This document shows positions 32,456 to 46,149 of a stretch of DNA of 64,000 nt, piece after piece. Positions within the stretch are counted from its first letter, which is position 1. Every line of letters begins with the position of its first letter. The translations under genes and the position numbers were made by a program. The notes under the pieces are model-generated. The model searched no databases. It saw only the letters and a program-made list of their open reading frames with translations, and was not told the origin of the DNA. The stretch comes from Eubacterium sp. (GTDB taxonomy: Bacteria; Bacillota; Clostridia; Oscillospirales; Acutalibacteraceae). The stretch spans positions 44,048 through 108,047 of the forward strand of contig JAFSTE010000016.1 in the NCBI GenBank assembly GCA_017450645.1, given 5' to 3'.

Positions 32456-34024
32456 ATGAAAACACAAATACTTTCCACCAAAACGGAAGATATTAAAAAA
32501 GCGGCAGAGATTATTAAAAGCGGCGGTCTTGTTGCGTTCCCGACCGAGACGGTTTACGGGCTCGGCGCAAACGCGCTGAACGAAGACGCGGTAAAAAGTA
32601 TTTTTAAGGCTAAGGGCAGACCGAGCGACAACCCGCTGATAATACATGTTGCCGACAAGGGCGACATAACGCCGCTTGTAAAAGAGGTCACGCCGAAGGC
32701 AAAGGCGCTGATTGACGCGTTTTTCCCCGCCCCGCTTACTATTATTTTGCAAAAATCAAATATCGTGCCAAACGCCACAAGCGGCGGGCTTGACACGGTG
32801 GCAGTGCGTATGCCGAAAAACGAGGTTGCGCGCGAGCTTATCCGCCAAAGCGGCTGCGTTATAGCGGCGCCGAGCGCCAACACAAGCGGGCTGCCGTCGC
32901 CGACAAAGGCTAAGTATGTTATCGACGATATGCTCGGCAAGGTCGACGCGATTATCGACGGCGGCGACTGCGAGGTAGGCGTTGAGTCTACGGTTATAAC
33001 GCTTGCAGGCGACACCCCGACTATTCTGCGCCCCGGCGCTGTTACAAAAGAAATGCTCGAAGCGGTTATCGGCGAGGTTGAAATCTCCCCTGCCGTTCTG
33101 AACGAGCTCGACAAAGACGAAACCGCGGCGTCACCGGGTATGAAGTACAAGCACTACGCGCCTAAGGCGAGGGTTATGCTCGTAAATGCCGATAAAGAAA
33201 GCTACGAGCGCTTTGTAAACGCTAAAGCTAACGCGTTTGCGCTATGCTTTGACGACGACAATGTAACAATACCGCACATAACTTTCGGCAAGGAGAGCGA
33301 CGGCGAGAGTCAGGCAAAGGAGCTGTTCGACGCTTTAAGACAGCTTGACGCGCTCGGCGCAAAGCGGGTTTACGCCCGACTTCCCGAAAAAGACGGCGTA
33401 TCAATGGCGGTGTATAACAGGCTCATAAGAGCAGCCGCGTTTAATATAATCGACCTTAAAAAGCCCTTTACCATAGGGCTTACGGGCGGCAGCGGAACGG
33501 GCAAGAGCCACATTTGCAAGTACCTCAAAACGCTCGGGTTTAACATTATCGACAGCGATTTGGTAGCGCGCGAGGTTGTAAAAAAAGGCTCTGCGCTTTT
33601 AACAGAGCTTCAGGCGGCGTTCGGCGACGACATAGTTAAGGACGGCGAGCTCGACCGCAGGCTGCTTGCAGGAAGAGCTTTCGAAACGAAAGAGCAGACC
33701 GCTAAGCTAAACGCGATTATGCACCCCGCGATTATAAAAAGGTGCGAGGAGATGGCTGACGGGCTTTGCGTGCTCGACGCGCCGCAGCTTTTTGAAGCGG
33801 GCGCGCAGGATAAATGCTATAAAATTATCGCCGTTACCGCAGGCACCGACACAAGAGTAGAACGCATATGCAAGCGCGACGGCATTACAAAAGAGCAGGC
33901 GCTGCAGCGCATTAACGCTCAGTTTGACAACGGGTATTACGCTGAGCACAGCGATTATGTAATACAAAACGACGGACAGGACATCAAGATACAGATTGAC
34001 CGTATTATTGATGAAATAATATAG
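32456..34024 (+). CDS. Fusion: threonylcarbamoyl-AMP synthase (TsaC/Sua5) and dephospho-CoA kinase (CoaE)
   Basis: One uninterrupted 522-codon frame holds two enzymes. Residues 1-205 form the YrdC/Sua5 core (GGLVAFPTETVYGLGANA, KGRPSDNPLIIHV, SAPSANTSG-like APSANTSG), which makes threonylcarbamoyl-AMP for tRNA t6A. Residues about 215-330 match the Sua5 C-terminal domain (SPGMKYKHYAPKA; AAFNI at the end). From about 338 the sequence is CoaE: P-loop GLTGGSGTGKS, then DSDLVAREV, HPAII, and RINAQ, for the last step of CoA synthesis. Sua5 next to prfA is a common order in Firmicutes; fusion to CoaE is not one I know. Confidence 0.92.
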   Translation: MKTQILSTKTEDIKKAAEIIKSGGLVAFPTETVYGLGANALNEDAVKSIFKAKGRPSDNPLIIHVADKGDITPLVKEVTPKAKALIDAFFPAPLTIILQKSNIVPNATSGGLDTVAVRMPKNEVARELIRQSGCVIAAPSANTSGLPSPTKAKYVIDDMLGKVDAIIDGGDCEVGVESTVITLAGDTPTILRPGAVTKEMLEAVIGEVEISPAVLNELDKDETAASPGMKYKHYAPKARVMLVNADKESYERFVNAKANAFALCFDDDNVTIPHITFGKESDGESQAKELFDALRQLDALGAKRVYARLPEKDGVSMAVYNRLIRAAAFNIIDLKKPFTIGLTGGSGTGKSHICKYLKTLGFNIIDSDLVAREVVKKGSALLTELQAAFGDDIVKDGELDRRLLAGRAFETKEQTAKLNAIMHPAIIKRCEEMADGLCVLDAPQLFEAGAQDKCYKIIAVTAGTDTRVERICKRDGITKEQALQRINAQFDNGYYAEHSDYVIQNDGQDIKIQIDRIIDEII

Positions 34025-35440: not shown

Positions 35441-35498
35441 AAAAAGAGGACGGTTGGGGCACCCTACGGAAATAGGGTGCCCCTTGTCCTCTTTTTAT
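35441..35498. terminator. Long bidirectional terminator
   Basis: AAAAAGAGGAC...GTCCTCTTTTT encloses an inner stem GGGGCACCCT/AGGGTGCCCC. It lies between convergent genes, with A/T runs on both sides. Confidence 0.9.
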
Positions 35499-35506
35499 TA
35501 TACTTA

Positions 35507-37453
35507 TTATGAAATATTCTTAATAAGCTTTAGTATGTTTTTACCGTTTTCGTAGCGGTACTCGAAGTCGTCGGCGGTGTTAAAGGTTATGAATTTACCG
35601 AGTCCGCCAACGGTGTGGTTATGGTCGTAGGTTTCGATATCAAGCAGATTTTTCGTAGGGTCGTACTCGACACCGCTATCCTCAAAGGTAATCTCCACCC
35701 TGTCGCTCGCCTCGACCTTAAAGGTAACATCGCCTACAGAACCGGGGTACGAATACGAACAGATGTTAACAAAAATCTCCTCCGCCATAAGCTTTAAGTT
35801 CCACTTGTCGTCAAACGACAAATCGGGTATCGCGTCAATAACTTCGTTAATCTGTGTCAGCTGCTCGACCTCGGATTTAAGGTTCAGGATTTTGCCGTAG
35901 CAATTATCCACAACCAGAGTCAGCATAGTTATATCGTCGCTCTGAAGCGCACCGTTTGCAAAATCGTTTACGGCTTTAAGCACATCTTTAATTATAGCCT
36001 TTTTGTTGCCGTCGATATGCTCGGCGAGAATTTGCTCGAGCCGTTTTGTCGTCAGCAGCTCGCCGTCCTTATTCTGAGCCTCGTTAACGCCGTCGGTATA
36101 AACAAACAGTGCGTCGTCCGCCTTAAGAGTTATCTCCTCCTGCTCATAGGTTATGTCGGGGAAAATGCCCGCAGCCATACCGTGAGCGCCCTCGAGAGTT
36201 ATAAGCTTATCGGAAATCAGATACGGCGGATTATGACCTACATTTGTGTAGGTCAGTTTTTTAGTTTCGGGGTTATATTTTGCAACAAACGCAGTAATGA
36301 ACAGCTTTTTAGGATTATTTTCACAAAGCGTGTTATTAAACGCCTCAGCCGTTTTTGCGGGCGTCATACCGAGCTTTAAGTAAATTTTAAGCAGCGTAAT
36401 TGCTCGCGCCATAAACAGCGAAGCCGAAACTCCCTTGCCCGACACATCCGCGACGGCAAAACAGATTTCGCCGTTTTCAAGCACCTGATAGTCGTACATA
36501 TCGCCGCCGACCTCTTTAGCGGGAAGCATATACGCTTCGATATTAACATAGCGGTTATCAAAATCGTCGGGAGCTAACAGTCCGAGCTGGATATTCTTTG
36601 CGATATTAAGCTCAGCCTCTCTTATATGCTTTTCGCGGTTGAGGGACTCGATATCCTCGATATAACGGTTTATCTCGTTAGTCATACTGTTATAGGCAGC
36701 AGCCATTCGGCTGAACTCAAGGCTGCCTTTTTCCTCAATCTTTTCGGAGGCTTCCTTGCGCTCGGAAACAAACCTGTTCATTTTTGTGCTTATTTCACGC
36801 GCAGGCTTCGACACGATTCTATATACTGCATACGAGAACGACAGAATGATTGTAACCATAAAGAACAGCGTAAGTCCGAACACGAGCGCAAACGACGAGT
36901 TAAGGTCCTTAACAACATCCGAAATAGTTTTTTCAACGCCGACAAGACGGGTGTTCGTCGGGTCGGTATGAAGTTTTTTGTAACAAATAAGGGAGTTGCC
37001 GAACTTGTTGTTTACCCTCGTTGTCTTAGGTGTGTTTTCGTTCTTTAGCGCCTCAAACATCTGTGGCTTTAGCTTACCGGTTACAACAACGCCGGTGTAC
37101 CTTGTTTTTTTAGCTTCGTTAGTGGCGTCCTCGCCGAAGCCGATAGCAAGATACTTTTCGCTCTGCTGCGCTTCGTCAACTTCTATTACATAGATATACG
37201 GCGCGTCGAGACTAAGGCAAAGCCTGCTTAGCTCCTCGCTGCACTGCTGAGCCTGCTGCGCGTCGTCGAGGTCGTATTTGGATACCGCATCCTCTATTAC
37301 ATGGGCATATTTTTCAATATCGCCGTAACAATGCTCGTATGTATGGTTAGAAACAGTCGCGTATGCCAGCGCCATAATAACAGTTTCGGCAATAATAACT
37401 ACAACCAGCTGGGATAACGCAACATTCCAGAAAATAGAAAATCTTTTTTTCAT
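35507..37453 (-). CDS. Membrane SpoIIE-type phosphatase with HAMP and RsbW-like kinase domain
   Basis: Two membrane helices (about 12-32 and 188-210) enclose an outside sensor domain. A HAMP linker (211-265), a PP2C/SpoIIE phosphatase (about 295-505) and a GHKL ATPase (about 515-645) follow. The phosphatase metal motifs are intact: EVGGDMYDY, VADVSGKGVSASLFMA, YTDGVNEAQ and SDDITMLTL. The ATPase has an N-box (AEEIFVNICSYSY), EDSG and a GGLGKF box, as in anti-sigma kinases. Inference: it sets the phosphorylation of the STAS protein encoded two genes upstream, so phosphatase and kinase act on the same antagonist. It is the last gene of the STAS-NRPS operon, with no sigma factor in the window. 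Confidence 0.9.
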   Translation of the reverse strand: MKKRFSIFWNVALSQLVVVIIAETVIMALAYATVSNHTYEHCYGDIEKYAHVIEDAVSKYDLDDAQQAQQCSEELSRLCLSLDAPYIYVIEVDEAQQSEKYLAIGFGEDATNEAKKTRYTGVVVTGKLKPQMFEALKNENTPKTTRVNNKFGNSLICYKKLHTDPTNTRLVGVEKTISDVVKDLNSSFALVFGLTLFFMVTIILSFSYAVYRIVSKPAREISTKMNRFVSERKEASEKIEEKGSLEFSRMAAAYNSMTNEINRYIEDIESLNREKHIREAELNIAKNIQLGLLAPDDFDNRYVNIEAYMLPAKEVGGDMYDYQVLENGEICFAVADVSGKGVSASLFMARAITLLKIYLKLGMTPAKTAEAFNNTLCENNPKKLFITAFVAKYNPETKKLTYTNVGHNPPYLISDKLITLEGAHGMAAGIFPDITYEQEEITLKADDALFVYTDGVNEAQNKDGELLTTKRLEQILAEHIDGNKKAIIKDVLKAVNDFANGALQSDDITMLTLVVDNCYGKILNLKSEVEQLTQINEVIDAIPDLSFDDKWNLKLMAEEIFVNICSYSYPGSVGDVTFKVEASDRVEITFEDSGVEYDPTKNLLDIETYDHNHTVGGLGKFITFNTADDFEYRYENGKNILKLIKNIS

Positions 37454-37474
37454 AATTGATTATCTCTCAACGGT

Positions 37475-37507
37475 ACAGCCGTTATATTTTAGCGATATAA
37501 CGGCTGT
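37475..37507 (-). promoter_or_regulatory. Stem-loop between the synthetase and phosphatase genes
   Basis: A perfect 12-bp inverted repeat (37475-37486 with 37496-37507, 9-base loop) lies in the 90-base gap. On the coding (minus) strand no T run follows, so it is more likely an RNA-processing or attenuating hairpin than a terminator; the plus-strand T run would only stop antisense RNA. Confidence 0.55.
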
Positions 37508-37543
37508 AATTTTTTCGGAGTTCTGCACGCTGCAGGGTTAAGG

Positions 37544-40500
37544 CTATCTGTTAAGATTATCCTTTTCAAAGAACCTGAAGCCGCGCAGTACATTAATAAA
37601 GTCGTCGACATATCTGTCGTTACTTGCGTTCCAGAAAAAGTCCATCCTTGCAAGAATCTGGGTTGTATAATGCGAGTCGCAGGGCAGCGTAATAACCTTC
37701 TTGCCGTGCGCCATATTCATATAGGCGGTCATACTCGAAAGGATAGCCGCCTTATCCGGATTTTGCTGAGCCTCGTTAAGCTCCTTAGCGAACACCTCGT
37801 CGTCAACAAAGCGGATATTCATACCGTTTTCGTTCATACGGCGGATAATATCGCCGAGCGGAAGCGTATGGTTATTAACCGCGTTGAACAGGCGACACTT
37901 AACGGGCGTGCGCGCTAACTTAAGGAACGCCGCGCAGGAGGTGTCAATCGGTCCCATACAAACCTGATTTTCTATCATACTGTACGGGAAGCAGCCGAGC
38001 ATACTGTATGAACGCAGCCTGCCCATAAAGTTATTAGTAAGGAAGTTAATCTGGAACTCGCCGTCGGACTCTCTCGCAGCAAGCGTACCTACGCGGATAA
38101 TCTTAGCGTCAAGTCCTCTTTCGGCAACGGCTTCGAGCACCATTCTCTCCGCCATTAACTTAGACGAAATGTACTTATTATCAAGTCCCTGACCGAAGTA
38201 AAGCGACTGCTCGTCGAGCGACTGCCTTAACAGCTTAGTGTCCTCGGTAGCTGTACCCGAAACGGAAACGGTTGAGAAATGAACAAGTCTTGCGCCCGTT
38301 TTTTCGCACAGCTTAGCGCAGTTAACGGCGCCGCCGACATTAATATCCTCTATGTCCGTACCGCTTGAAAAATGCTTAACATTTGCCGCGCAGTTAAAGA
38401 CGGTATTAATCGGCTCGTTTTCGTATCTTTCAAAGGACTTGTAATCCGTAACATCTCCCTCGAAAACAACTACTCTTTCGTTAATATCTTTTTCGTACCT
38501 GTCGTCGAAATAGTAGTACATCATATTCTGAATACGGTCCTTGGCGCTGTCGAACTTGCCCTTACGGAGCATACAGTACGCGGTACCCTTTTCCTCTTTA
38601 AGATACTGAGCGAGAAGGTGCGCGCCCATGTAACCCGTAGCGCCCGTAATCAGAACATTACCTATATCGTATAACTCGCCTTCGCGGAAGGAGTCGACAG
38701 TGTTTTCTTTAAGGATACTGTCAATCGCGGAATAATCGTAATTATCAAAGTCAAACAGTCCATTGTCGTTCTGGCTCTCGTCCTTATTGAATAACGCAGC
38801 CAGCGCTCTGGGCGTGTTACATTTAAAGATATCGCCGTATGTTATATCGAACCCGTTTTCCGAAGCGTCGAGCACTACCGATGTAACGATAAGCGAGGTG
38901 CCGCCGATTTCAAAGAAATTGTCGGTTGCGCCGACCTTGTCGAGCTTAAGCACCTTTTTAAACGAGTTACAGAAAAATTCTTCCGTTGCGTTCGCGGGCG
39001 CAACATACTCACCGAGCGATACCGGAACGGGCTCGGGCAGATGCTTAATATCGGTTTTACCGTTAGCGGTCATAGGAAGCTCGTTCATCTGGAGATAAGC
39101 GGTAGGCACCATATAATGGGTAAGGTGCTGCTTAAGCTCGTCGCGAAGCGCGTCGATATCCACCTGATGGTCGGCGGTAAAGTAAGCGCAGAGATTCTCC
39201 TGGCCGTTAAGCTTACGGATGGTAACGGCTACCTTTTTAATACCCGGCTGTACGGCGATAAGTCCCTCAATTTCGCCAAGCTCAATTCTAAGACCTCTTA
39301 GCTTAACCTGGTTATCGAGTCTGCCGAGGATAAGAACATAACCGTCCTTGTCCCACTTGGTGTAGTCGCCCGAGCGGTAGGTTTCGGCGCCGTTATATGT
39401 AATAAACGACTGAGCTGTTTTTTCGGGCAGGTTTTTATAGCCCTTTGCAACGCCTATACCGCTGATATAAAGCTCGCCGATTACGCCGAACGGAGCGAGG
39501 TCGCCGAATTTATCAACGATATATTCGCGGTAGTTGAAAAGCGGTTTTCCGACATGGATATACTCGGCGTCGTTAAGCACTGCAGCGTTTGACGAAACGG
39601 TAATCTCGGTCGGTCCGTAGGTGTTTATAATAACCGCGTCTTTAGCGCAATCTCTTATGCTGTTTCTCAGCGACAGCGGATACGCTTCGCCGCCGCAAAG
39701 CACAAGGCTGCATTTTGAAAGCGCCTGCCTGAACGGCTCGTACTCCATATACTGAGAAATTCTCGAAGGAGTACCGTTGATACAGTCAGCGCCGTGCTTT
39801 TCCATAAGCTCGGCGAGCGCTCTCGGGTCGTTCATTTCGTCCTCGGCGGTAAACACAAGAGTCTTACCGTGGCAAAGCGACGCGGTATGCTCCTTAAACG
39901 ACATATCAAACGAAACCGTCGTAACCGAAATATATGTGCTTACACGGTTTACGATATTATTAATAATAGTATTTGTCTTGTCGTCGGTTAAATAGCTGCA
40001 AATACCGCGATGGCGCAGCATAACACCCTTAGGCTTACCCGTAGAGCCGGAGGTGTAAATCATATACGAAAGCTCCGTATCGCTCATTTCAACCGACGGG
40101 TTTCGGGTATTATCGCCCTTAAGAATATCGTCTACATTAATTACCTTGTCAGCGGGATAATTAGCGATATTGTCCTCGGTCGTGATAATAAACGCCGCTT
40201 CGCTGTCCTCGATAATATGATTAATTCTGTCGGCGGGATACTGCGGGTCGCAGGGAATAAACGCAGCGCCCGACTTATTAACGCCGAACATACAGCTAAA
40301 GTAATAAGTCCTTCTCGGCAAAAGGAGAGCTATGCTGTCCCCTACCTTAATGCCTTTACTGATAAGATTATTTGCAACGATATTTGCATTTTCGTTAAGC
40401 TCTTTATAGGTTAGAGCGCCGTCCTTTGCAATAACGGCGGTCTTGTCCGCGTTTTTATCAGCCGAAGCCTCGAACATTTTATGCAAAAGAGTATAGGGTA

Positions 40501-43471
40501 AATCCTCTTTAATCGAGGTAACGCTGAACTTTTCGAGCATATCCACCTGGTTTTGAGGCAGAGCCGAAGCGTCCCTGACGGTTTTAACCTCGCTTTGGGA
40601 GAGCAGGGTTAAGGTATGTTTAATCTGCTCGGCAAAGCCCTGAATAACCGTATCGTCAAACAGCTCGGACGAATACTGAACCATAAAGGTGAGCTTGTCG
40701 CCCGTTTTACGGATAACGACGCTTATATCCCTGCTCATTTTCTGAAGCGGAACATAAAGCTCTATGCTGATGCCGTCCTGCTCGCATACGGGCGGATACC
40801 ACATATAATTAAGGCTGACGTCAAAAATAGGATTACGGCTTTCGTCGCGCTGTTTAACAAACTCGCCGACTACTTCCTCAAACGGAAGCGACGCGCCGTA
40901 GGTAACATTTCTGACCGCATTAGCGGAGTCGGTTATAAAGTCGCTAAGCTCGGCAGTTCTTACGGGCTTAACGCGAACGGGAGCAGTGTTAACGAACATA
41001 CCGATAATGTTCTCGCCGCCGTTTGGTCGCATATTAGTAGGAATACCAAGCACAACGTCCTCGGAGGTCGTGTATTTTCCGAGTATCATAGATACGGCAG
41101 AAAAGATAAGCTCAAATTCCGTAACCTCATATTTTCTCGCCGTTTTATTAAGCGCGTCAACCGCCTCGCCCTCAAAAACGAAGTCGATTTGTCTGTCGGA
41201 GAGCGGGTGCACCTTAGGGCGCTTGCCTTTAAGCGGCATATCGTTTACGGGTATGCCGTCGGCAAAAAGCTCGCGGTAGAAAGCCATTCCGCGTTCGGAT
41301 TTATCCTCGGCGTCGTAGATGTCCGAAAGGTCGAGCTCCGCGGTATTAATCTCTTTTTTACAAAGTGCGTCGGACAGCTCTTTAACAAATGTTGCCGACG
41401 AGCCGCCGTCAAAAGCGATATGGTGTATCGCCATATGCAGAATATGATTTGCGTCGCCGATTTCGTAAACGGTAGGTCTTACGGGGATACCCTTGTTAAG
41501 ATTAAAGGGCTGTGCATAGTTATCGATAATCTCTATAACCTCGTCACGGCTTTTAGCCTGCTTAACCTCGATTTCGGGGAGCTTGTCGGTAAGAATTCTA
41601 ACCGGCAGACCGTTATCCTCGCCGTAATAGGAGCAAAACGCCTCGTGCGCCTTAAATACGGTGCACAGCGCCTCTTTAATCGAAGCGGTGTCGCTGCCGT
41701 TGATAATTGCCGCTACATTAAGGTTATAAACGGTGGAATTTTCGTCGAGCTTCTGCTCGAGATACATACCCCTTTCAAACGGGGTAAGCGGATAAATTCT
41801 CGGCTTTTTCGCCTTTTTAACGAGCGTTTTCTTCGACGCCTTCTGAATAAGCTGCCTTTCAATCATACGGGGAGTTTTGCCCGCAAAGATATCCGAGGTG
41901 CTGATTTTATAAAGCGTGCACTCGCTCGCCGCCATAGCGCATTTAATCGAGTCGCCGCCGAGTGCAAAGAAGTCGTCGTCCACGCCGACATTTTCAACCG
42001 AAAGCACCTTTTCAAACGCTTTACAAATCGCTTTTTGCATATCGGTTTCGGGCGCGATATAGTTGTTTTTAAAGCTCGAAGCCTCAGGCGGCACAAGCGC
42101 GCTTCTGTCGAGCTTGCCGTTAGTGTTTACGGGGAGCTTGTCGAGCTTAACGAAAAACGACGGTATCATATACGACGGCAGCTTTTTAGCGATTTCGCGC
42201 TTAATTTCGTCTGCGTCGGTCGCGTCCTTTTCAACATAGTACGCAACAAGATACACCTGACCGTACTGGTTGGTGAAATCCTTTATCGCAGCGTCAAAAA
42301 CGCCGTCCGCCGCTTTAATTACGGTTTCAATCTCGCTCGGCTCAACGCGCTGGCCGTTAATTTTAACCATCCAGTCCATACGGTTAAGGAAGATAATATT
42401 ACCGTCCTCGCCGAGCTTAACAATATCGCCCGTGCGCAGCATATTTTCAAATCCGTCCTTATCGTAAAACGGGTTTGGCACAAAGGTTTTTGCGCTCTGC
42501 TCGGGCAGGTTAAGATACTCGGAGGCAAAGCGACCTGTAAGGCAAAGCTCGCCCTCCTGCGCCTGGTTGCCGTCCTCGTCAAGAATATAGGTATTAACCT
42601 CGCCGATACCTTTTCCGATAGGCGTGTTGCTGTACTTTTTGTCGAGCTTGAAGGCAAGAGTTCCGGCGCACTCCGACTGACCGTACATAACGGTTATCTC
42701 AAAGTCCTCGCTGTATGTGTCCGACACTCTTTCGCTGCCGGTATATACCGTTTTAAGAGAGTTGCCCTTTTGCTTAAACACCTTAAGCATTTTGGGGCTT
42801 ATAAAGATATGGTTAATCTCGTTATCATCGATAAAATCAGCCAGCAGTACCGGGTCGCGCATAACATCAAGCGGCATAATATAGCCCGTCGCGCAAATAG
42901 TAAGCGGCATAAAAATATCGTGTACCGATACTACGAACGAAAACGGCGCAGCAAGTGCCGTACGGCTTCCCTGAGGTAAATCGAAATACTCGTTATATCT
43001 GAAAACCGCGTCGCTGATACTGCCGTGAGTGTGCAAAACGCCCTTGGGCTTGCCCGTCGAGCCGGAGGTGTAAATCAAAAGCGCAGGTGCGCCGTCCTCG
43101 GCGTCGGTTTCGCCCGTAAAGGTTTCCTCCTTTTCGATAGCGCGAATGAATTTTTCGTCAATAACCGCCTTAGCGTTACAGTCCGAGCGTATGGAGTTAA
43201 GGCGCTCCTCGGGATAAGTTGTCAATAGCGGAGCAAAAGCCGCACCCGCAAGCCATACGCCGTACATAGCGGCGATATATTCCTTATTTCTCGGCAGCTC
43301 AATGGTAACGAAATCGCCTTTGCCAACGCCGAGACGGCTGAGCTTAGCTGCGATTTTTCGCGCATAAGAATCAAACTGCGAAAAGGTAAAGCCGCTTTTA
43401 GTATCGCGTATTACGGTAAAATCGGGAAAGCGCTTTATATTTTCGCTTATTTTTAGAGTCAGCTTACTCAT
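37544..43471 (-). CDS. Nonribosomal peptide synthetase, A-T-C-A-T-R
   Basis: The 1975-residue synthetase reads as adenylation 1 (1-485; YTSGSTGKPKG near 134, YGQSE near 260), carrier 1 (FFALGGDS near 502), condensation (585-1000; HHIAFDG near 682), adenylation 2 (1035-1510; YTSGSTGKPKG near 1138, NTYGPTE), carrier 2 (FFEIGGTS near 1519) and a terminal NAD(P)H reductase (GATGYMG near 1610; YISSK near 1764). The product should be a two-unit chain released as an aldehyde or alcohol. In adenylation 1 the Asp that binds the alpha-amino group is replaced by Val (FSFVVS against FDMS in adenylation 2), so unit 1 may be a non-amino carboxylic acid. Known R-terminated gut-Clostridia synthetases make reactive peptide aldehydes or pyrazinones. 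Confidence 0.93.
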   Translation of the reverse strand: MSKLTLKISENIKRFPDFTVIRDTKSGFTFSQFDSYARKIAAKLSRLGVGKGDFVTIELPRNKEYIAAMYGVWLAGAAFAPLLTTYPEERLNSIRSDCNAKAVIDEKFIRAIEKEETFTGETDAEDGAPALLIYTSGSTGKPKGVLHTHGSISDAVFRYNEYFDLPQGSRTALAAPFSFVVSVHDIFMPLTICATGYIMPLDVMRDPVLLADFIDDNEINHIFISPKMLKVFKQKGNSLKTVYTGSERVSDTYSEDFEITVMYGQSECAGTLAFKLDKKYSNTPIGKGIGEVNTYILDEDGNQAQEGELCLTGRFASEYLNLPEQSAKTFVPNPFYDKDGFENMLRTGDIVKLGEDGNIIFLNRMDWMVKINGQRVEPSEIETVIKAADGVFDAAIKDFTNQYGQVYLVAYYVEKDATDADEIKREIAKKLPSYMIPSFFVKLDKLPVNTNGKLDRSALVPPEASSFKNNYIAPETDMQKAICKAFEKVLSVENVGVDDDFFALGGDSIKCAMAASECTLYKISTSDIFAGKTPRMIERQLIQKASKKTLVKKAKKPRIYPLTPFERGMYLEQKLDENSTVYNLNVAAIINGSDTASIKEALCTVFKAHEAFCSYYGEDNGLPVRILTDKLPEIEVKQAKSRDEVIEIIDNYAQPFNLNKGIPVRPTVYEIGDANHILHMAIHHIAFDGGSSATFVKELSDALCKKEINTAELDLSDIYDAEDKSERGMAFYRELFADGIPVNDMPLKGKRPKVHPLSDRQIDFVFEGEAVDALNKTARKYEVTEFELIFSAVSMILGKYTTSEDVVLGIPTNMRPNGGENIIGMFVNTAPVRVKPVRTAELSDFITDSANAVRNVTYGASLPFEEVVGEFVKQRDESRNPIFDVSLNYMWYPPVCEQDGISIELYVPLQKMSRDISVVIRKTGDKLTFMVQYSSELFDDTVIQGFAEQIKHTLTLLSQSEVKTVRDASALPQNQVDMLEKFSVTSIKEDLPYTLLHKMFEASADKNADKTAVIAKDGALTYKELNENANIVANNLISKGIKVGDSIALLLPRRTYYFSCMFGVNKSGAAFIPCDPQYPADRINHIIEDSEAAFIITTEDNIANYPADKVINVDDILKGDNTRNPSVEMSDTELSYMIYTSGSTGKPKGVMLRHRGICSYLTDDKTNTIINNIVNRVSTYISVTTVSFDMSFKEHTASLCHGKTLVFTAEDEMNDPRALAELMEKHGADCINGTPSRISQYMEYEPFRQALSKCSLVLCGGEAYPLSLRNSIRDCAKDAVIINTYGPTEITVSSNAAVLNDAEYIHVGKPLFNYREYIVDKFGDLAPFGVIGELYISGIGVAKGYKNLPEKTAQSFITYNGAETYRSGDYTKWDKDGYVLILGRLDNQVKLRGLRIELGEIEGLIAVQPGIKKVAVTIRKLNGQENLCAYFTADHQVDIDALRDELKQHLTHYMVPTAYLQMNELPMTANGKTDIKHLPEPVPVSLGEYVAPANATEEFFCNSFKKVLKLDKVGATDNFFEIGGTSLIVTSVVLDASENGFDITYGDIFKCNTPRALAALFNKDESQNDNGLFDFDNYDYSAIDSILKENTVDSFREGELYDIGNVLITGATGYMGAHLLAQYLKEEKGTAYCMLRKGKFDSAKDRIQNMMYYYFDDRYEKDINERVVVFEGDVTDYKSFERYENEPINTVFNCAANVKHFSSGTDIEDINVGGAVNCAKLCEKTGARLVHFSTVSVSGTATEDTKLLRQSLDEQSLYFGQGLDNKYISSKLMAERMVLEAVAERGLDAKIIRVGTLAARESDGEFQINFLTNNFMGRLRSYSMLGCFPYSMIENQVCMGPIDTSCAAFLKLARTPVKCRLFNAVNNHTLPLGDIIRRMNENGMNIRFVDDEVFAKELNEAQQNPDKAAILSSMTAYMNMAHGKKVITLPCDSHYTTQILARMDFFWNASNDRYVDDFINVLRGFRFFEKDNLNR

Positions 43472-43482
43472 AAATTTCTCCT

Positions 43483-43776
43483 TTACTCAAACACCAAAAC
43501 TCTGTCAAAGCCGGTCATACTCAGCAACTGCATTACATTTTTAGAAACATTTTTAAGAGAAAATCTGTCTGCTCCGACAGTCTGGTGTGCCTGGATAATA
43601 ACGCGGATACCGGCGGACGAAACATAGTCAACCTCCGCCATATCAAGCACGAGCTTTTCGTGCTCGCTGCAAGCCTCGTTTACAGCGCTTTCAAGCTCTC
43701 CGGAAGTGAGGGTATCAATTCTGCCCTCGGGTATCAGGGTACATGTGTTGCCGTTAATTTCCTTTTTGATTTCCAT
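43483..43776 (-). CDS. STAS-domain anti-sigma factor antagonist
   Basis: The start is the ATG at 43776 (MEIKKE) with GGAGGG upstream. The 97-residue single-domain protein matches RsbV/SpoIIAA: KLVLDMAEVDYVSSAGIRVI holds the phosphorylatable serine (near residue 55) in the DYVSSAG loop. In partner switching the unphosphorylated form captures the anti-sigma kinase. Its stop codon overlaps the RBS of the synthetase gene, so the two are tightly coupled. The phosphatase/kinase two genes downstream is its obvious partner. Confidence 0.93.
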   Translation of the reverse strand: MEIKKEINGNTCTLIPEGRIDTLTSGELESAVNEACSEHEKLVLDMAEVDYVSSAGIRVIIQAHQTVGADRFSLKNVSKNVMQLLSMTGFDRVLVFE

Positions 43777-43804
43777 AATAATTCCCTCCAAACAAAATTT
43801 TATA

Positions 43805-43995
43805 TCAGAATTCAAGTTCCTTTTTCTCAAACAGCTTAACGGATAGTATCAGCGGAAGTACGATATATCCAAGCCGTTTTTACCGATAAGACCGTAAATA
43901 TCGCCTTTTTTTACGGTCATATCAATGCTTTTAAGCACTAAATTTTTGCCGTAGCTTTTTGAAATACCTTTTAGGCTGATTAATTCTTCGCTCAT
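43805..43995 (-). pseudogene. Remnant of an ABC transporter: ATPase start joined to permease end
   Basis: After GGAGGATTT, an ATG at 43995 opens a frame that reads like an ABC-type ATPase (LISLKGISKSYGKNLVLKSI) and breaks off in the Walker A motif at GLIGKNG, giving a 48-residue product ending at 43849. From about 43873 a different frame reads like the end of an ABC-2 type permease (LGYIVLPLILSVKLFEKKEL) to a stop at 43805. Inference: one deletion removed most of the ATPase gene and most of the permease gene. It lies directly before the STAS gene and downstream of ugd. Confidence 0.75.
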
Positions 43996-44013
43996 AAATC
44001 CTCCTATACGCTT

Positions 44014-45246
44014 TTAATCCCTTTTGAACACATCTCTTGTATAAACTTTATCTTTTACATCGTCAAGGATTGAATCATAGCGGTTTGCTATAATCGAATC
44101 CGAACGCTTTTTAAATTCGTCAAGGTTGTTTACAACCTTAGAACCGAAAAATGTTGTGCCGTCGGGGAGGGTCGGCTCGTAAATAATTACAGTAGCACCG
44201 CGCGATTTAATTCTTTTCATAACGCCCTGAATTGAGCTCTGTCTGAAATTATCGCTGTTGCTCTTCATTGTAAGCCTGTACACGCCTATCGTTATCGGGT
44301 GTTCGGCGTTGACATCGTATGTGCTGTTTTGTGAGTAATAACCCGCCTTTTCAAGCACTCTGTCGGCGATAAAATCCTTTCGCGTACGGTTAGAGTCAAC
44401 AATCGCCGAAATCATATTCTGCGGAACATCGTCATAGTTTGCCAGCAGCTGACGCGTATCTTTAGGCAGGCAGTAGCCGCCGTAACCGAAGGACGGATTA
44501 TTATAGTGGTTGCCGATACGAGTATCAAGGCAAACGCCGTTAATAATCTGCTGAGTGTCAAGCCCTTTAATCTCGGCATAGGTGTCAAGCTCGTTAAAAA
44601 ACGCAACGCGAAGCGCAAGGTAGGTGTTTGCAAAAAGCTTTACCGCTTCCGCTTCGGTAAATCCCATAATAAGCGTTTCGATATTCTCTTTTATCGCGCC
44701 CTGCTGTAAAAGCTGTATAAACTTTTCGGCAGCGTCAACGAGCCTTTTATCGTTTAAATCCGTACCTACAATAATTCTCGACGGATAAAGGTTGTCGTAA
44801 AGCGCCTTGCTCTCGCGTAAAAATTCGGGGCTGAACAAAATATTCGCGTTTCCCGTAGAGCGTCTAATCTGTTCGGTGTAGCCAACGGGGATTGTACTTT
44901 TAATTACAATTATCGCGTCGGGGTTAACGCTCGTTACGCAGTCGATAACCGACTCCACCGCCGAGGTGTCAAAAAAGTTTCTCTTGTTGTCGTAATCTGT
45001 CGGCGCGGCTACGATAACATATTCCGCGTCGCGGTACGCGTCCTCGGAGTCGGTAGTAGCAACTAAGTTAAGCTCCTTTTCGCTAAGATATTTTTCGATA
45101 TAATCGTCCTGAATGGGCGACTTTTTACTGTTAATTAATTCAACCTTTTCGGGTATTATGTCAACCGCCTTAACCTCGTTATTCTGGGCTAAAAGCACTG
45201 CCATCGACAAGCCGACATAACCCGTTCCTGCAACTGCTATTTTCAT
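44014..45246 (-). CDS. ugd: Nucleotide-sugar (UDP-glucose 6-) dehydrogenase
   Basis: The 410-residue enzyme oxidises a UDP-hexose, most likely UDP-glucose to UDP-glucuronate, a precursor of surface polysaccharide. Visible features are the N-terminal Rossmann [10 protein letters not shown], the [10 protein letters not shown] and FSPEFLRES motifs, and the catalytic Cys in [11 protein letters not shown] near 258. An epimerase-like remnant lies just upstream, which suggests that the ancestral locus made UDP-galacturonate. It is complete, lies in line with the STAS-NRPS operon and may be cotranscribed. Confidence 0.92.
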
Positions 45247-45258
45247 AAGAACACTTCC

Positions 45259-45624
45259 TTAAACCTTATAATAATCCTTATACCACTCGGCAAAATTCCT
45301 TAGTCCCGTTCTGAGCGAGGTTGATGGCTTGTAGCCGAAATCGCGCTCAAGCGCCGAGGTGTCGGCGTATGTTACGGGAACATCGCCGGGCTGCATGGGA
45401 ACAAAATACAGTGAGGTGTCAATGAACATAGCAAGCGCGAGCTTACGCATTTCAAAAACACTCCACAAAACATCGGTAGCATAAAACGCAAGAACGCTTA
45501 TCAGGAAGTTTCTGAAAGCGCTCCATTTAGTATTACTGAAGTCAGCTCCGCGTTTAGTAAAGATATCAAAATTTTCGATTAACAAAATCGCTATAGCGAG
45601 TATGTCTATTGCACAGTAATACAT
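45259..45624 (-). pseudogene. Chimeric remnant: sensor membrane domain joined to sugar-nucleotide epimerase end
   Basis: The frame starts best at ATG 45624 ([10 protein letters not shown]; an upstream ATG is at 45678). Residues 1-75 resemble the N-terminal membrane sensor found ahead of GGDEF domains in Clostridia (YATDVLW...DTSLYF). Then, in frame, the last 45 residues match the C-terminus of NAD-dependent UDP-glucuronate epimerases ([20 protein letters not shown]...). Neither catalytic part exists. A deletion running from inside one gene to the end of the next explains it; the in-frame join could still be translated. Confidence 0.75.
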
Positions 45625-45793
45625 ATTATTTCTCTTCTCCGCCCTGATTTTTATTAAAACTGTGCATTCTTTTATCAAATTTACGCTTAACGGTTGAAAA
45701 ACGACAAAAGTAGTACTATTTATTATAATATCATAAAATATAAATTAGTACAATATAACAAATATAACGAATTATATAAAAGAGGTTTAGTAA

Positions 45794-46149
45794 ATGTCTA
45801 CAAAAAACAATGCTATATCCTTAAGGTCCATATATATTTTAATAGTTGTGGGTGCGGTGCTGCTCGCCGGCCTTATGCTCTACTCAACCGCGTATCTTTC
45901 TTCAAGCTACAGGGCCTTAACGGAAAACACTATCGCGCTGCGTAAGGCGTCGCTCGAGCTTATGGATGTTGAGGGCTTCAACGACTGGGATATTGATGTT
46001 ACGACGACCTCTTGCAGGAGTATGTGGAAATCAATCAGTCGATTGAAATCAACGCCGAGTACACCATAGCTTAAACTAACTCGACAACGGATAAGATTTA
46101 TGACATAAGACAGCTTATCCGCCAGACAAACAGCAAAATATTTAAGTAA
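45794..46149 (+). pseudogene. Frameshifted sensor-protein remnant
   Basis: After AAAGAGG, an ATG at 45794 gives a one-helix N-terminus typical of membrane sensor proteins (RSIYILIVVGAVLL, then a helical RKASLELMD). From about 45964 the sequence appears to be a different protein tail. It is readable only if a base is restored near 46000 (YDDLLQEYVEINQSIEINAE) and is then broken by a TAA at 46072-46074 before running to a stop at 46149. I do not recognise the tail. The actual frame ends at 46069. Confidence 0.6.

Follow-up and report, generated by a model that had tools for sequence, protein, structure and literature searches.

We found a partner-switching set, consisting of a STAS-domain antagonist, a SpoIIE-type phosphatase and an RsbW-type kinase, around a nonribosomal peptide synthetase (NRPS) in the window, i.e., the whole stretch of 64,000 nucleotides of a Eubacterium sp. 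analysed here. The description of these genes as a sigma-less switching set around a small-molecule synthetase, given in an earlier note, is supported, and the arrangement recurs across many Clostridia. The chances are roughly even that they represent a conserved and exchangeable cassette in which the partner-switching set controls the synthesis or export of a small molecule without a dedicated sigma factor. Many ruminant-gut bacteria have such switch genes, a device known mainly from transcriptional control, clustered with a synthetase and often with an exporter to which part of the switch is fused, suggesting that the switch may control directly the making or exporting of the molecule.

The apparent operon of the window

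The three genes are all on the minus strand and form one apparent operon, in the order STAS antagonist, NRPS, SpoIIE/RsbW membrane protein. Rechecked coordinates and Pfam matches agree with the order previously given, and place phosphatase, kinase, STAS protein and enzyme within one predicted operon (by order, spacing and strand):

43483..43776, minus strand: STAS-domain protein resembling anti-sigma-factor antagonists, 97 aa (PF01740, 55 bits)
37544..43471, minus strand: NRPS, 1975 aa, A-T-C-A-T-R (Pfam; first T domain by motif)
42092..43444, minus strand: A1 adenylation domain, Val replacing the Asp that binds the alpha-amino group (alignment to LgrA A1)
40541..41800, minus strand: condensation domain, HHxxxDG motif present (PF00668)
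39032..40474, minus strand: A2 adenylation domain of alpha-amino-acid type, code DMKN[LM]GTVSK (alignment)
38792..38974, minus strand: second carrier (T) domain (PF00550)
37937..38650, minus strand: thioester reductase (R) release domain (PF07993, 117 bits)
37474..37508, no strand assigned: 15-bp hairpin between the NRPS and SpoIIE genes, T-run on the plus-strand side only (pattern scan)
35507..37453, minus strand: 648-aa protein with a membrane sensor, a weak HAMP, a SpoIIE phosphatase and an RsbW-type kinase (Pfam)
35915..36475, minus strand: SpoIIE (PP2C-type) phosphatase domain, residues 327-513 (PF07228, 161 bits)
35519..35875, minus strand: RsbW-type HATPase domain (HATPase_c_2), residues 527-645 (PF13581, 49 bits)
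35447..35465, minus strand: terminator-like hairpin just 3' of the SpoIIE gene, oriented with the operon (consensus match)

The STAS gene starts with the ATG at 43776 and its stop codon, which ends at 43483, lies 11 bases from the ATG of the NRPS and overlaps the ribosome-binding site of the latter, as had been claimed (TAAAGGAG). The gap between the NRPS and SpoIIE genes is 90 bp. A terminator and independent promoters separating the three genes, named earlier as evidence that would count against the arrangement, were not seen on the coding strand in the pattern scan. Terminator calls are consensus matches, of which there were 15 against 11.8 expected by shuffling, and co-transcription is therefore no more than likely.

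The STAS protein scores 58.7 bits with TIGR00377 of NCBIfam, above the cut-off of 53.45, and all 70 STAS proteins that were aligned keep its phospho-acceptor Ser, the position of which we assume from SpoIIAA. The membrane protein had been described as combining sensor, HAMP, SpoIIE and RsbW-like kinase. The SpoIIE and RsbW parts of this description stand; the HAMP match is weak (20 bits vs a Pfam cut-off of 25), and the remaining N-terminal part matched no family at its cut-off in the profile search. Five aspartates of the phosphatase (D318, D336, D454, D506 and D507), presumably the acidic metal ligands, are conserved in 44-45 of the 45 aligned homologues. The N, G1 and G2 boxes of a GHKL kinase are present in nearly the same numbers of the 45 aligned proteins (N in 44, E in 45, DxG in 44, GxG in 45), and the RsbW-type domain of the window protein gives a weak match to RsbW 6m36 (E 0.0022).

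In the NRPS, Pfam delimits two AMP-binding stretches, one Condensation domain, one PP-binding stretch and a NAD_binding_4 reductase; the first T domain was placed by its [LM]GGDSI motif only. At the position of the alpha-amino Asp (Asp235), A1 has V or I in all 66 full-length rows, 62 of which are distinct. The same number of aligned rows (66/66) keep the condensation motif HHIA[FI]DG, the YxxxK of the R domain and, save for the L/M alternative, an identical A2 code, the positions of which were mapped by known motifs. From these features we infer that the product is a small reduced molecule: A1 would select a variable acid lacking an alpha-amino group and A2 one constant amino acid, and the NRPS would couple the two and release the product reductively as an aldehyde or alcohol. 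NRPSs producing dipeptide aldehydes in the gut were reportedly the subject of a paper in Cell in 2017.

Recurrence of the neighbourhood

Among the best 80 of 310 relatives, a STAS or SpoIIE gene lies within 6 kb in 30 of the 35 well-flanked orthologous loci (6 kb or more of sequence on each side), and both lie there in 26; grouping at 90% NRPS identity gave 26 of 31 groups. Counts of loci are not phylogenetically independent. The set comprised 81 loci including the window, after L021 and L023 were dropped as the same places as L058 and L094, and 46 were excluded from the 35 for short flanks or a partial NRPS. Five loci have neither gene within 6 kb (L048, L054, L069, L084 and L105). One of these, L069, has SpoIIE::RsbW and STAS genes slightly outside this distance, and two others, L084 and L105, are added when fusions of a MATE exporter with an RsbW-like domain (MATE::RsbW) are also counted, which gives 32 of the 35 loci from the same relatives. 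In contrast, of 32 regions taken as controls around other NRPS genes of the reductase type, only 2 contained STAS or SpoIIE genes (both genes in one, a lone SpoIIE in the other). These controls came from 44 reductase matches in frames of at least 1000 aa, 8 of which had already been collected and 4 of which, very long, were omitted; one of the 32, L209, yielded no NRPS by script. The neighbourhood is thus real and beyond chance. It is not a general property of reductase-type NRPSs, an explanation we rejected because 31 of the 32 controls lack the STAS and SpoIIE pair.

The earlier note had asked whether the order recurs in other Clostridia or is unique to this assembly. The arrangement occurs in many of them: L088 shares the order of the window and others permute the same genes. 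In 18 loci that we compared, the orders are permuted and the regulators are 24-47% identical to those of the window, whereas the NRPSs are 63-85% identical; regulators as low as 24% alike stand beside synthetases 72% alike. Two other types of NRPS are also found with such regulators, C-A-T-C-A-T-R with STAS and SpoIIE::RsbW (L223) and C-A-T-R with STAS, SpoIIE and RsbW (L024). Two loci are from isolates: Ruminococcus sp. FC2018 (L098) encodes consecutively the NRPS, MATE::RsbW, SpoIIE::RsbW, PGA_cap and STAS, and Pseudobutyrivibrio sp. ACV-2 (L105) encodes the NRPS and MATE::RsbW.

The genes of the window could also be chance neighbours or passengers of a genomic island. They lie in a block that is missing from the equivalent site of three congeners (of the 14 stretches from other congeners that include the M18 peptidase gene, 3 have the empty site and 11 an early contig end or no adjacent window gene). 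This explanation is nevertheless largely refuted, and we give it almost no weight, given the conservation across loci, the near absence of the pair from the controls, and the clusters of genomes G007 and G001, which have other gene orders and are on a different contig from the window's neighbour gene.

Other partner-switch clusters in these genomes contain lipid-lysyltransferase-like, GNAT and STAS::APH genes. Targets of such switches therefore vary, and the switch of the window might govern another process (e.g., the envelope or cyclic-di-GMP), the NRPS being merely co-transcribed with it. The repeated pairing with differing NRPS types, regulators and gene orders argues against this reading, which we regard as distinctly improbable.

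Sigma factors and exporters as possible targets of the switch

In four genomes carrying such clusters, we found only two strong SigB/F/G-type sigma factors per genome, the next-best matches being at about 130-138 bits, and in each genome one of the two belongs to its own STAS-kinase-sigma (spoIIA-like) set. The NRPS genes of the same four genomes have no sigma70_r2 match within 20 kb. A dedicated cognate sigma factor as the target of the switch was thus not found in these genomes, one of which (G000) is 87% complete and could be missing a sigma factor. When G000 alone was scanned with NCBIfam, its sigma factors were SigF-like and SigG-like; it has six STAS-domain matches. A Sigma-B-type operon was rejected because no SigB-like factor was found in the genomes searched.

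Under classical switching, the STAS protein would release a sigma factor, whether SigF, SigG or an unseen one, for transcription of the NRPS operon and of further genes. The protein families are indeed those of SpoIIAA/SpoIIAB/SpoIIE and RsbV/RsbW/RsbU, and since SigF-like and SigG-like factors exist, the STAS protein could work through SpoIIAB and SigF, or by cross-talk to SigG. Yet this has to be set against the small sigma factor inventory, with one of the two already in a spoIIA-like set, the several STAS-domain matches of G000, the lack of sigma70_r2 near the NRPS, the fusion of an RsbW-like domain to an exporter and the presence of the same kinds of genes in an archaeon. That archaeon is not known to have bacterial sigma factors. 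We consider classical switching unlikely. Among the three readings of the earlier note, a switch that sets a sigma factor has the weakest support, because of the two factors per genome and the archaeal case.

The exporter fusion suggests another target. In 41 of 64 loci from the best 80 of 310 relatives, MATE::RsbW is encoded less than 400 bp 3' of the NRPS (counted by BLAST clustering, with some of the sequences truncated where contigs end). Its RsbW-like domain retains the N-box Glu in all 41 aligned copies, but the first Gly of the ATP-binding G2 box in none, as against 45 of 45 in SpoIIE::RsbW. The fused domain might be receiving rather than ATP-using, although the loss of one Gly does not prove that of ATP binding.

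In a class-wide sample, partner-switch genes are near 18 of 30 MATE::RsbW genes and 1 of 20 plain MATE genes among the matches listed (17 and 1 with a tighter distance limit), the 30 including two that are not full fusions by the domain rule (L174 and L177) and the 20 being a non-random upper part of the list, several with stretches shortened by contig ends. A general property of MATE genes was rejected on the strength of that single plain MATE gene in 20. The other 12 of the 30 fusions listed have no partner-switch gene inside the distance limit, and five NRPS-MATE::RsbW neighbourhoods (L156-L160) have no STAS or SpoIIE across the stretches read, so the fused domain may function without a local switch. 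The fusion occurs in at least about two dozen of the 391 sampled genomes of the class, among the matches listed. Because it accompanies the NRPS in many relatives, export is a leading candidate target. The operon of the window, unlike those of many relatives, has no MATE::RsbW beside the NRPS, and the genome has a distant one on contig 28. Our literature search found no paper on the fusion, which is weak evidence given its thin coverage of subscription journals.

The sensor, synthetase and exporter occur together at many loci, and the fused RsbW domain is positioned where transport could be reported. A feedback loop might thus exist in which the product, or its export by MATE, is the signal for the SpoIIE sensor or the MATE-fused domain, by autoinduction or as a flux sensor. 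However, the SpoIIE proteins of the window and of the L029 type are 24% identical overall, with no shared N-terminal family found, despite the same A2 code, which makes a common ligand doubtful. We consider such a loop unlikely.

Proposed mechanism and related systems

In the cassette reading that we prefer, an external signal would act on the membrane SpoIIE::RsbW protein, the RsbW domain of which would phosphorylate the STAS protein and the SpoIIE domain of which would dephosphorylate it. Unphosphorylated STAS would then bind a non-sigma partner and switch production on. Where MATE::RsbW follows the NRPS, its RsbW-like domain would be the likeliest partner, acting by export gating or transport feedback; in the window, the partner might be the NRPS itself or the distant fusion. 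We infer the phosphorylation, the binding partner, the effect on export or synthesis and the product from the gene set, its conservation, the fusions, the motifs kept or lost and the sigma factor inventory. Should the exporter or synthetase be what the switch acts on, partner switching would be a direct control of chemical output, beyond transcription, MATE::RsbW would be an exporter that carries its own receiver for the phospho-switch, and one would understand why an archaeon without bacterial sigma factors keeps the same kinds of genes beside an NRPS. The isolates FC2018 and ACV-2 make this hypothesis testable. More tentatively, and with slightly less than even confidence, we suggest that the sigma-free partner switch could be a general post-translational controller in gut Clostridia, and perhaps methanogens, in which STAS proteins dock on the RsbW domains of MATE exporters, with related STAS/RsbW-APH-like kinase fusions, and an outside signal is coupled to the release of NRPS aldehydes.

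The system had been proposed as a candidate for an undescribed one. It is not wholly undescribed, because a similar neighbourhood (mru0066-mru0071) was reported in 2010 in the archaeon Methanobrevibacter ruminantium M1 (PLoS One, PMC2812497). Parts of that paper describe an NRPS with an anti-sigma factor antagonist, two serine phosphatases and a MatE efflux protein, and suggest sensing, regulated NRPS expression and export. That NRPS has two modules, ending in a thioester reductase according to the legend of Fig. S8 and a thioesterase according to the text, and differs from ours in being archaeal and in beginning with a condensation domain; the window differs in lacking an adjacent MATE and in having phosphatase and kinase fused (PMC2812497). 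Passages of PMC6694145, PMC8241843 and PMC8406330 do not contain the arrangement.

Precedents exist for the regulatory part. In the sections consulted of PMC8457831, SiaABCD of Pseudomonas aeruginosa has a phosphatase, a kinase, a STAS-like protein and the target enzyme in one operon, and SiaC, the STAS-like protein, activates the enzyme SiaD by direct binding, with no sigma factor. There, however, the enzyme is a diguanylate cyclase instead of an NRPS, SiaC is a DUF1987 protein, and kinase and phosphatase are separate instead of fused (PMC8457831). SypE of Vibrio fischeri resembles the window protein in combining an RsbW-like kinase and a PP2C in one protein, with the STAS protein SypA as substrate and a reported post-transcriptional effect, but has a receiver domain in place of a membrane sensor, and no synthetase (excerpts of PMC8256260 and PMC12826045).

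On the side of the synthetase, the closest likeness is to AusA, the aureusimine/phevalin (pyrazinone) NRPS of Staphylococcus, the NCBIfam family of which (NF047350) covers the window protein almost entirely (residues 11-1961). Both have the A-T-C-A-T-R layout. The AusA type requires two A domains of alpha-amino-acid type and A1 of the window lacks the corresponding Asp; for this reason, and because the score of 1008 bits falls short of the family's cut-off of 2500, we rejected AusA membership. We know of no AusA beside a partner switch. A Staphylococcus epidermidis plasmid encodes a protein, labelled simply as an NRPS, whose full-length identity to that of the window is 28.8%. Indigoidine is also an NRPS product. 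In Vogesella indigofera its output is affected by TciR, an RsbW-like domain protein that differs from ours in being a receiver-RsbW response regulator, in a system that, according to part of PMC12826045, works with no RsbV homologue.

Gene set and its recurrence among relatives

An earlier note described a nonribosomal peptide synthetase (NRPS) embedded in a partner-switching operon, i.e., one encoding a STAS antagonist, a kinase and a SpoIIE phosphatase. Gene calls and Pfam matches bear out this three-gene description, and the STAS stop codon does overlap the ribosome-binding site of the NRPS (:: denotes a fusion in one protein).

43483-43776, minus strand: STAS antagonist, its stop within the 3' end TAAAGGAG
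37544-43471, minus strand: NRPS
35507-37453, minus strand: SpoIIE::RsbW membrane protein

The NRPS has the layout A-T-C-A-T-R (adenylation, carrier, condensation, reductase): Pfam matches cover two AMP-binding domains, a single condensation domain, the second of the carriers and an NAD_binding_4 reductase; the first carrier is recognized by its [LM]GGDSI motif alone, which 66/66 full-length rows contain. The last protein combines an N-terminal part without assigned family, a weak HAMP match (20 bits against a cut-off of 25), a SpoIIE phosphatase and an RsbW-type ATPase domain. A pattern scan of the coding strand, by consensus matching only, found no terminator-like site between the three genes and one 3' of the last. 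A single match to the ACPS family (phosphopantetheinyl transferases) was found in the window's genome, on a different contig.

A scan of genome contigs with an alignment of three NRPSs yielded 310 relatives; we kept the best 80 (81 loci with the window). Most of these 80 are titled as uncultured Clostridia, and many of the titles name ruminants; the few isolates include Ruminococcus sp. FC2018 (L098), Pseudobutyrivibrio sp. ACV-2 (L105) and Lachnospiraceae bacterium AC2029 (L069). In 35 of the 81 loci, the NRPS is near-complete and flanked by 6 kb or more on either side; among these 35, a STAS gene lies within 6 kb in 28, a SpoIIE gene in 28, both in 26 and at least one in 30; two (L084, L105) have neither but encode MATE::RsbW, a MATE exporter with a C-terminal RsbW-like domain, and in three (L048, L054, L069) none of the three was found within 6 kb. 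With these 35 loci grouped at 90% NRPS identity, STAS or SpoIIE accompanies the NRPS in 26 of 31 groups and both do in 22.

The order of the genes varies. STAS is directly upstream of the NRPS, on the same strand, in 19/63 loci of this set, and the window's order, STAS-NRPS-SpoIIE::RsbW, recurs in L088 and is thus not confined to the window. Other orders are SpoIIE::RsbW-STAS-NRPS (L058, L074), STAS-SpoIIE::RsbW-NRPS (L094) and NRPS-MATE::RsbW-SpoIIE::RsbW-PGA_cap-STAS (e.g., L029, L098), and the switch genes are divergent from the NRPS in L061, L070, L072 and L104. The PGA_cap (CapA-like) protein (e.g., L029:19503-20696) is a frequent neighbour, in 29 loci by clustering, with three members scanned.

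As a control, we searched 391 sampled genomes of the class for reductase-type NRPSs; 44 reductase matches were listed in frames of at least 1000 aa, and 32 fetched regions plus eight further ones were examined. The 32 comprise one with STAS and SpoIIE (L223: STAS, SpoIIE::RsbW and a C-A-T-C-A-T-R NRPS, consecutive), one with a lone SpoIIE 4.4 kb from the NRPS (L216), 29 with neither and one in which the script found no NRPS. L154 has a reductase-type NRPS with STAS and SpoIIE::RsbW, L153 has this pair 3.6 kb away on the far side of the NRPS (stretch L203), and neither gene was seen near the NRPS in L156-L160. The pair thus accompanies 4/40 examined regions (the window, L154, L153, L223), in a sample uncorrected for shared ancestry.

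The exporter fusion and the product

A family of about 577 aa follows the NRPS within 400 bp in 41, and within 30 bp in 36, of the 64 loci (best 80 of 310 plus the window) whose 3' flank spans 300 bp or more. All five members scanned (L029, L105, L107, L108, L153) match Pfam MatE and HATPase_c_2, the latter under the cut-off in L108. In a profile of the C-terminal half, the first part matches solved MATE transporters (E to 8e-8) and the last part matches RsbW (E 0.006) and SpoIIAB (E 0.6-0.8) weakly. Partner-switch genes lie within about 6.7 kb of 18/30 MATE::RsbW genes versus 1/20 plain MATE genes (Fisher p ~7e-5; 17/30 versus 1/20 at about 4.2 kb), again uncorrected for shared ancestry. Seven of these 30 adjoin an NRPS (L153, L154, L156-L160); the MATE::RsbW genes at L171:6077-7678 and L180:2041-4293 instead have a GH3-type and an ATP-grasp protein as neighbours.

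The MATE-fused domains (41 aligned: 39 from NRPS loci, plus L107 and L108) keep the N-box Glu and the G1 Asp in 41/41 and the first G2-box glycine in 0/41, whereas the G2 GxG is present in 45/45 aligned SpoIIE::RsbW proteins. This difference suggests an active kinase in the SpoIIE-fused domain and an altered domain, possibly a receiving one, on the MATE side.

At code positions mapped by motifs, the Asp for the alpha-amino group is absent from the first adenylation domain in 66/66 rows (62 distinct sequences; position checked on an LgrA alignment) and present in the second in 66/66. The ten-residue code is variable in the first and constant, except for L/M, in the second. The product is expected to combine one constant amino acid with a variable acyl group, from acids that lack an alpha-amino group, and to leave the enzyme as an aldehyde or alcohol; unlike that of AusA, a pyrazinone, it need not form one.

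The target of the switch

The earlier note's view of a switch lacking its sigma factor agrees with the inventory of four genomes (the window's, 87% complete; the congener G007, G001 and G038, 95-97%): no dedicated sigma factor was found in them, and the 20 kb on either side of the NRPS contain no sigma70_r2 match. The SigB/SigF/SigG model has two strong matches in each (255-265 and 206-226 bits), followed by matches of 130-138 bits that we take to be SigA. The lower strong match adjoins STAS and HATPase_c_2 matches in all four, as in spoIIA. In the window's genome, NCBIfam, applied to all of them but a 382-aa one, assigns the strong matches as SigG-like and SigF-like and the others as SigE-, SigK- and SigH-like plus two ECF types; this genome also has six STAS-domain matches and several partner-switch sets. 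Archaea are not known to have bacterial sigma factors. The gene neighbourhood is already known from one archaeon, M. ruminantium, in which an NRPS was noted in 2010 with two serine phosphatases, an anti-sigma antagonist and a MatE protein (a passage of PMC2812497); a passage of PMC8241843 suggests a bacterial origin for archaeal NRPSs. Taken together, the sigma inventory, the empty surroundings, the six STAS matches and the archaeal gene set make a sigma factor the less likely target; some cross-talk to SigF may nonetheless occur. The gene set would fit a sigma-free switch, SiaABCD-like or SypE-like by analogy, whose candidate targets are the NRPS and, in many relatives, also the MATE::RsbW exporter.

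The window's genome and G007 carry second clusters of STAS, LPG_synthase_C, MATE::RsbW, GNAT and SpoIIE with RsbW (L107:5893-11973, L108:5562-11579). STAS also occurs in fusion with a small-molecule kinase domain of the APH type (L108:13883-15013, L151:7321-8526), with an extra C-terminal RsbW domain in STAS::APH::RsbW (L163:7142-8701, L165:9452-11038). These clusters and fusions suggest that, in the sampled Clostridia, switches of this kind are more widely coupled to enzymes and transporters. A partial literature search found no account of how the gene set is conserved in Clostridia, of a MATE::RsbW fusion or of regulators being exchanged.

Exchange of regulators and genomic setting

Between the window and G007 (L058), SpoIIE::RsbW is 42% identical and the NRPS 85%; between the window and L029, the values are 24% for the SpoIIE protein and 72% for the NRPS, and no shared N-terminal family was found in these two SpoIIE proteins. 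The two identities correlate over 37 loci (Spearman 0.50), and regulator replacement is therefore occasional, not constant. Judged from these comparisons, the NRPS retains a partner switch of some kind, but which one varies between loci.

In the congeners G006, G007 and G002, the M18 peptidase gene, the window's upstream neighbour, is followed within 0.6-2.1 kb by genes orthologous to those of the window beyond about 46.2 kb. The block at about 35460-46100 is missing between matching flanking genes in these 3/14 congeners (the remaining 11 give no information on the site or have another arrangement) and was thus either inserted in the window's genome or lost from the three. In G007 and G001, the NRPS and the M18 gene are on different contigs. 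The block also includes:

44014-45246: UDP-glucose/GDP-mannose dehydrogenase gene
45259-45678: short frame

Between this dehydrogenase gene and STAS, a 48-codon frame (43849-43995, minus strand), without a Pfam match, resembles, by eye, the beginning of an ABC ATPase gene and abuts, in another frame, what appear to be the final 22 codons of an ABC permease gene; the junction looks like a deletion scar. At 32456-34024 (plus strand), a 522-aa protein joins a Sua5/YrdC threonylcarbamoyl-AMP synthase to the dephospho-CoA kinase CoaE.
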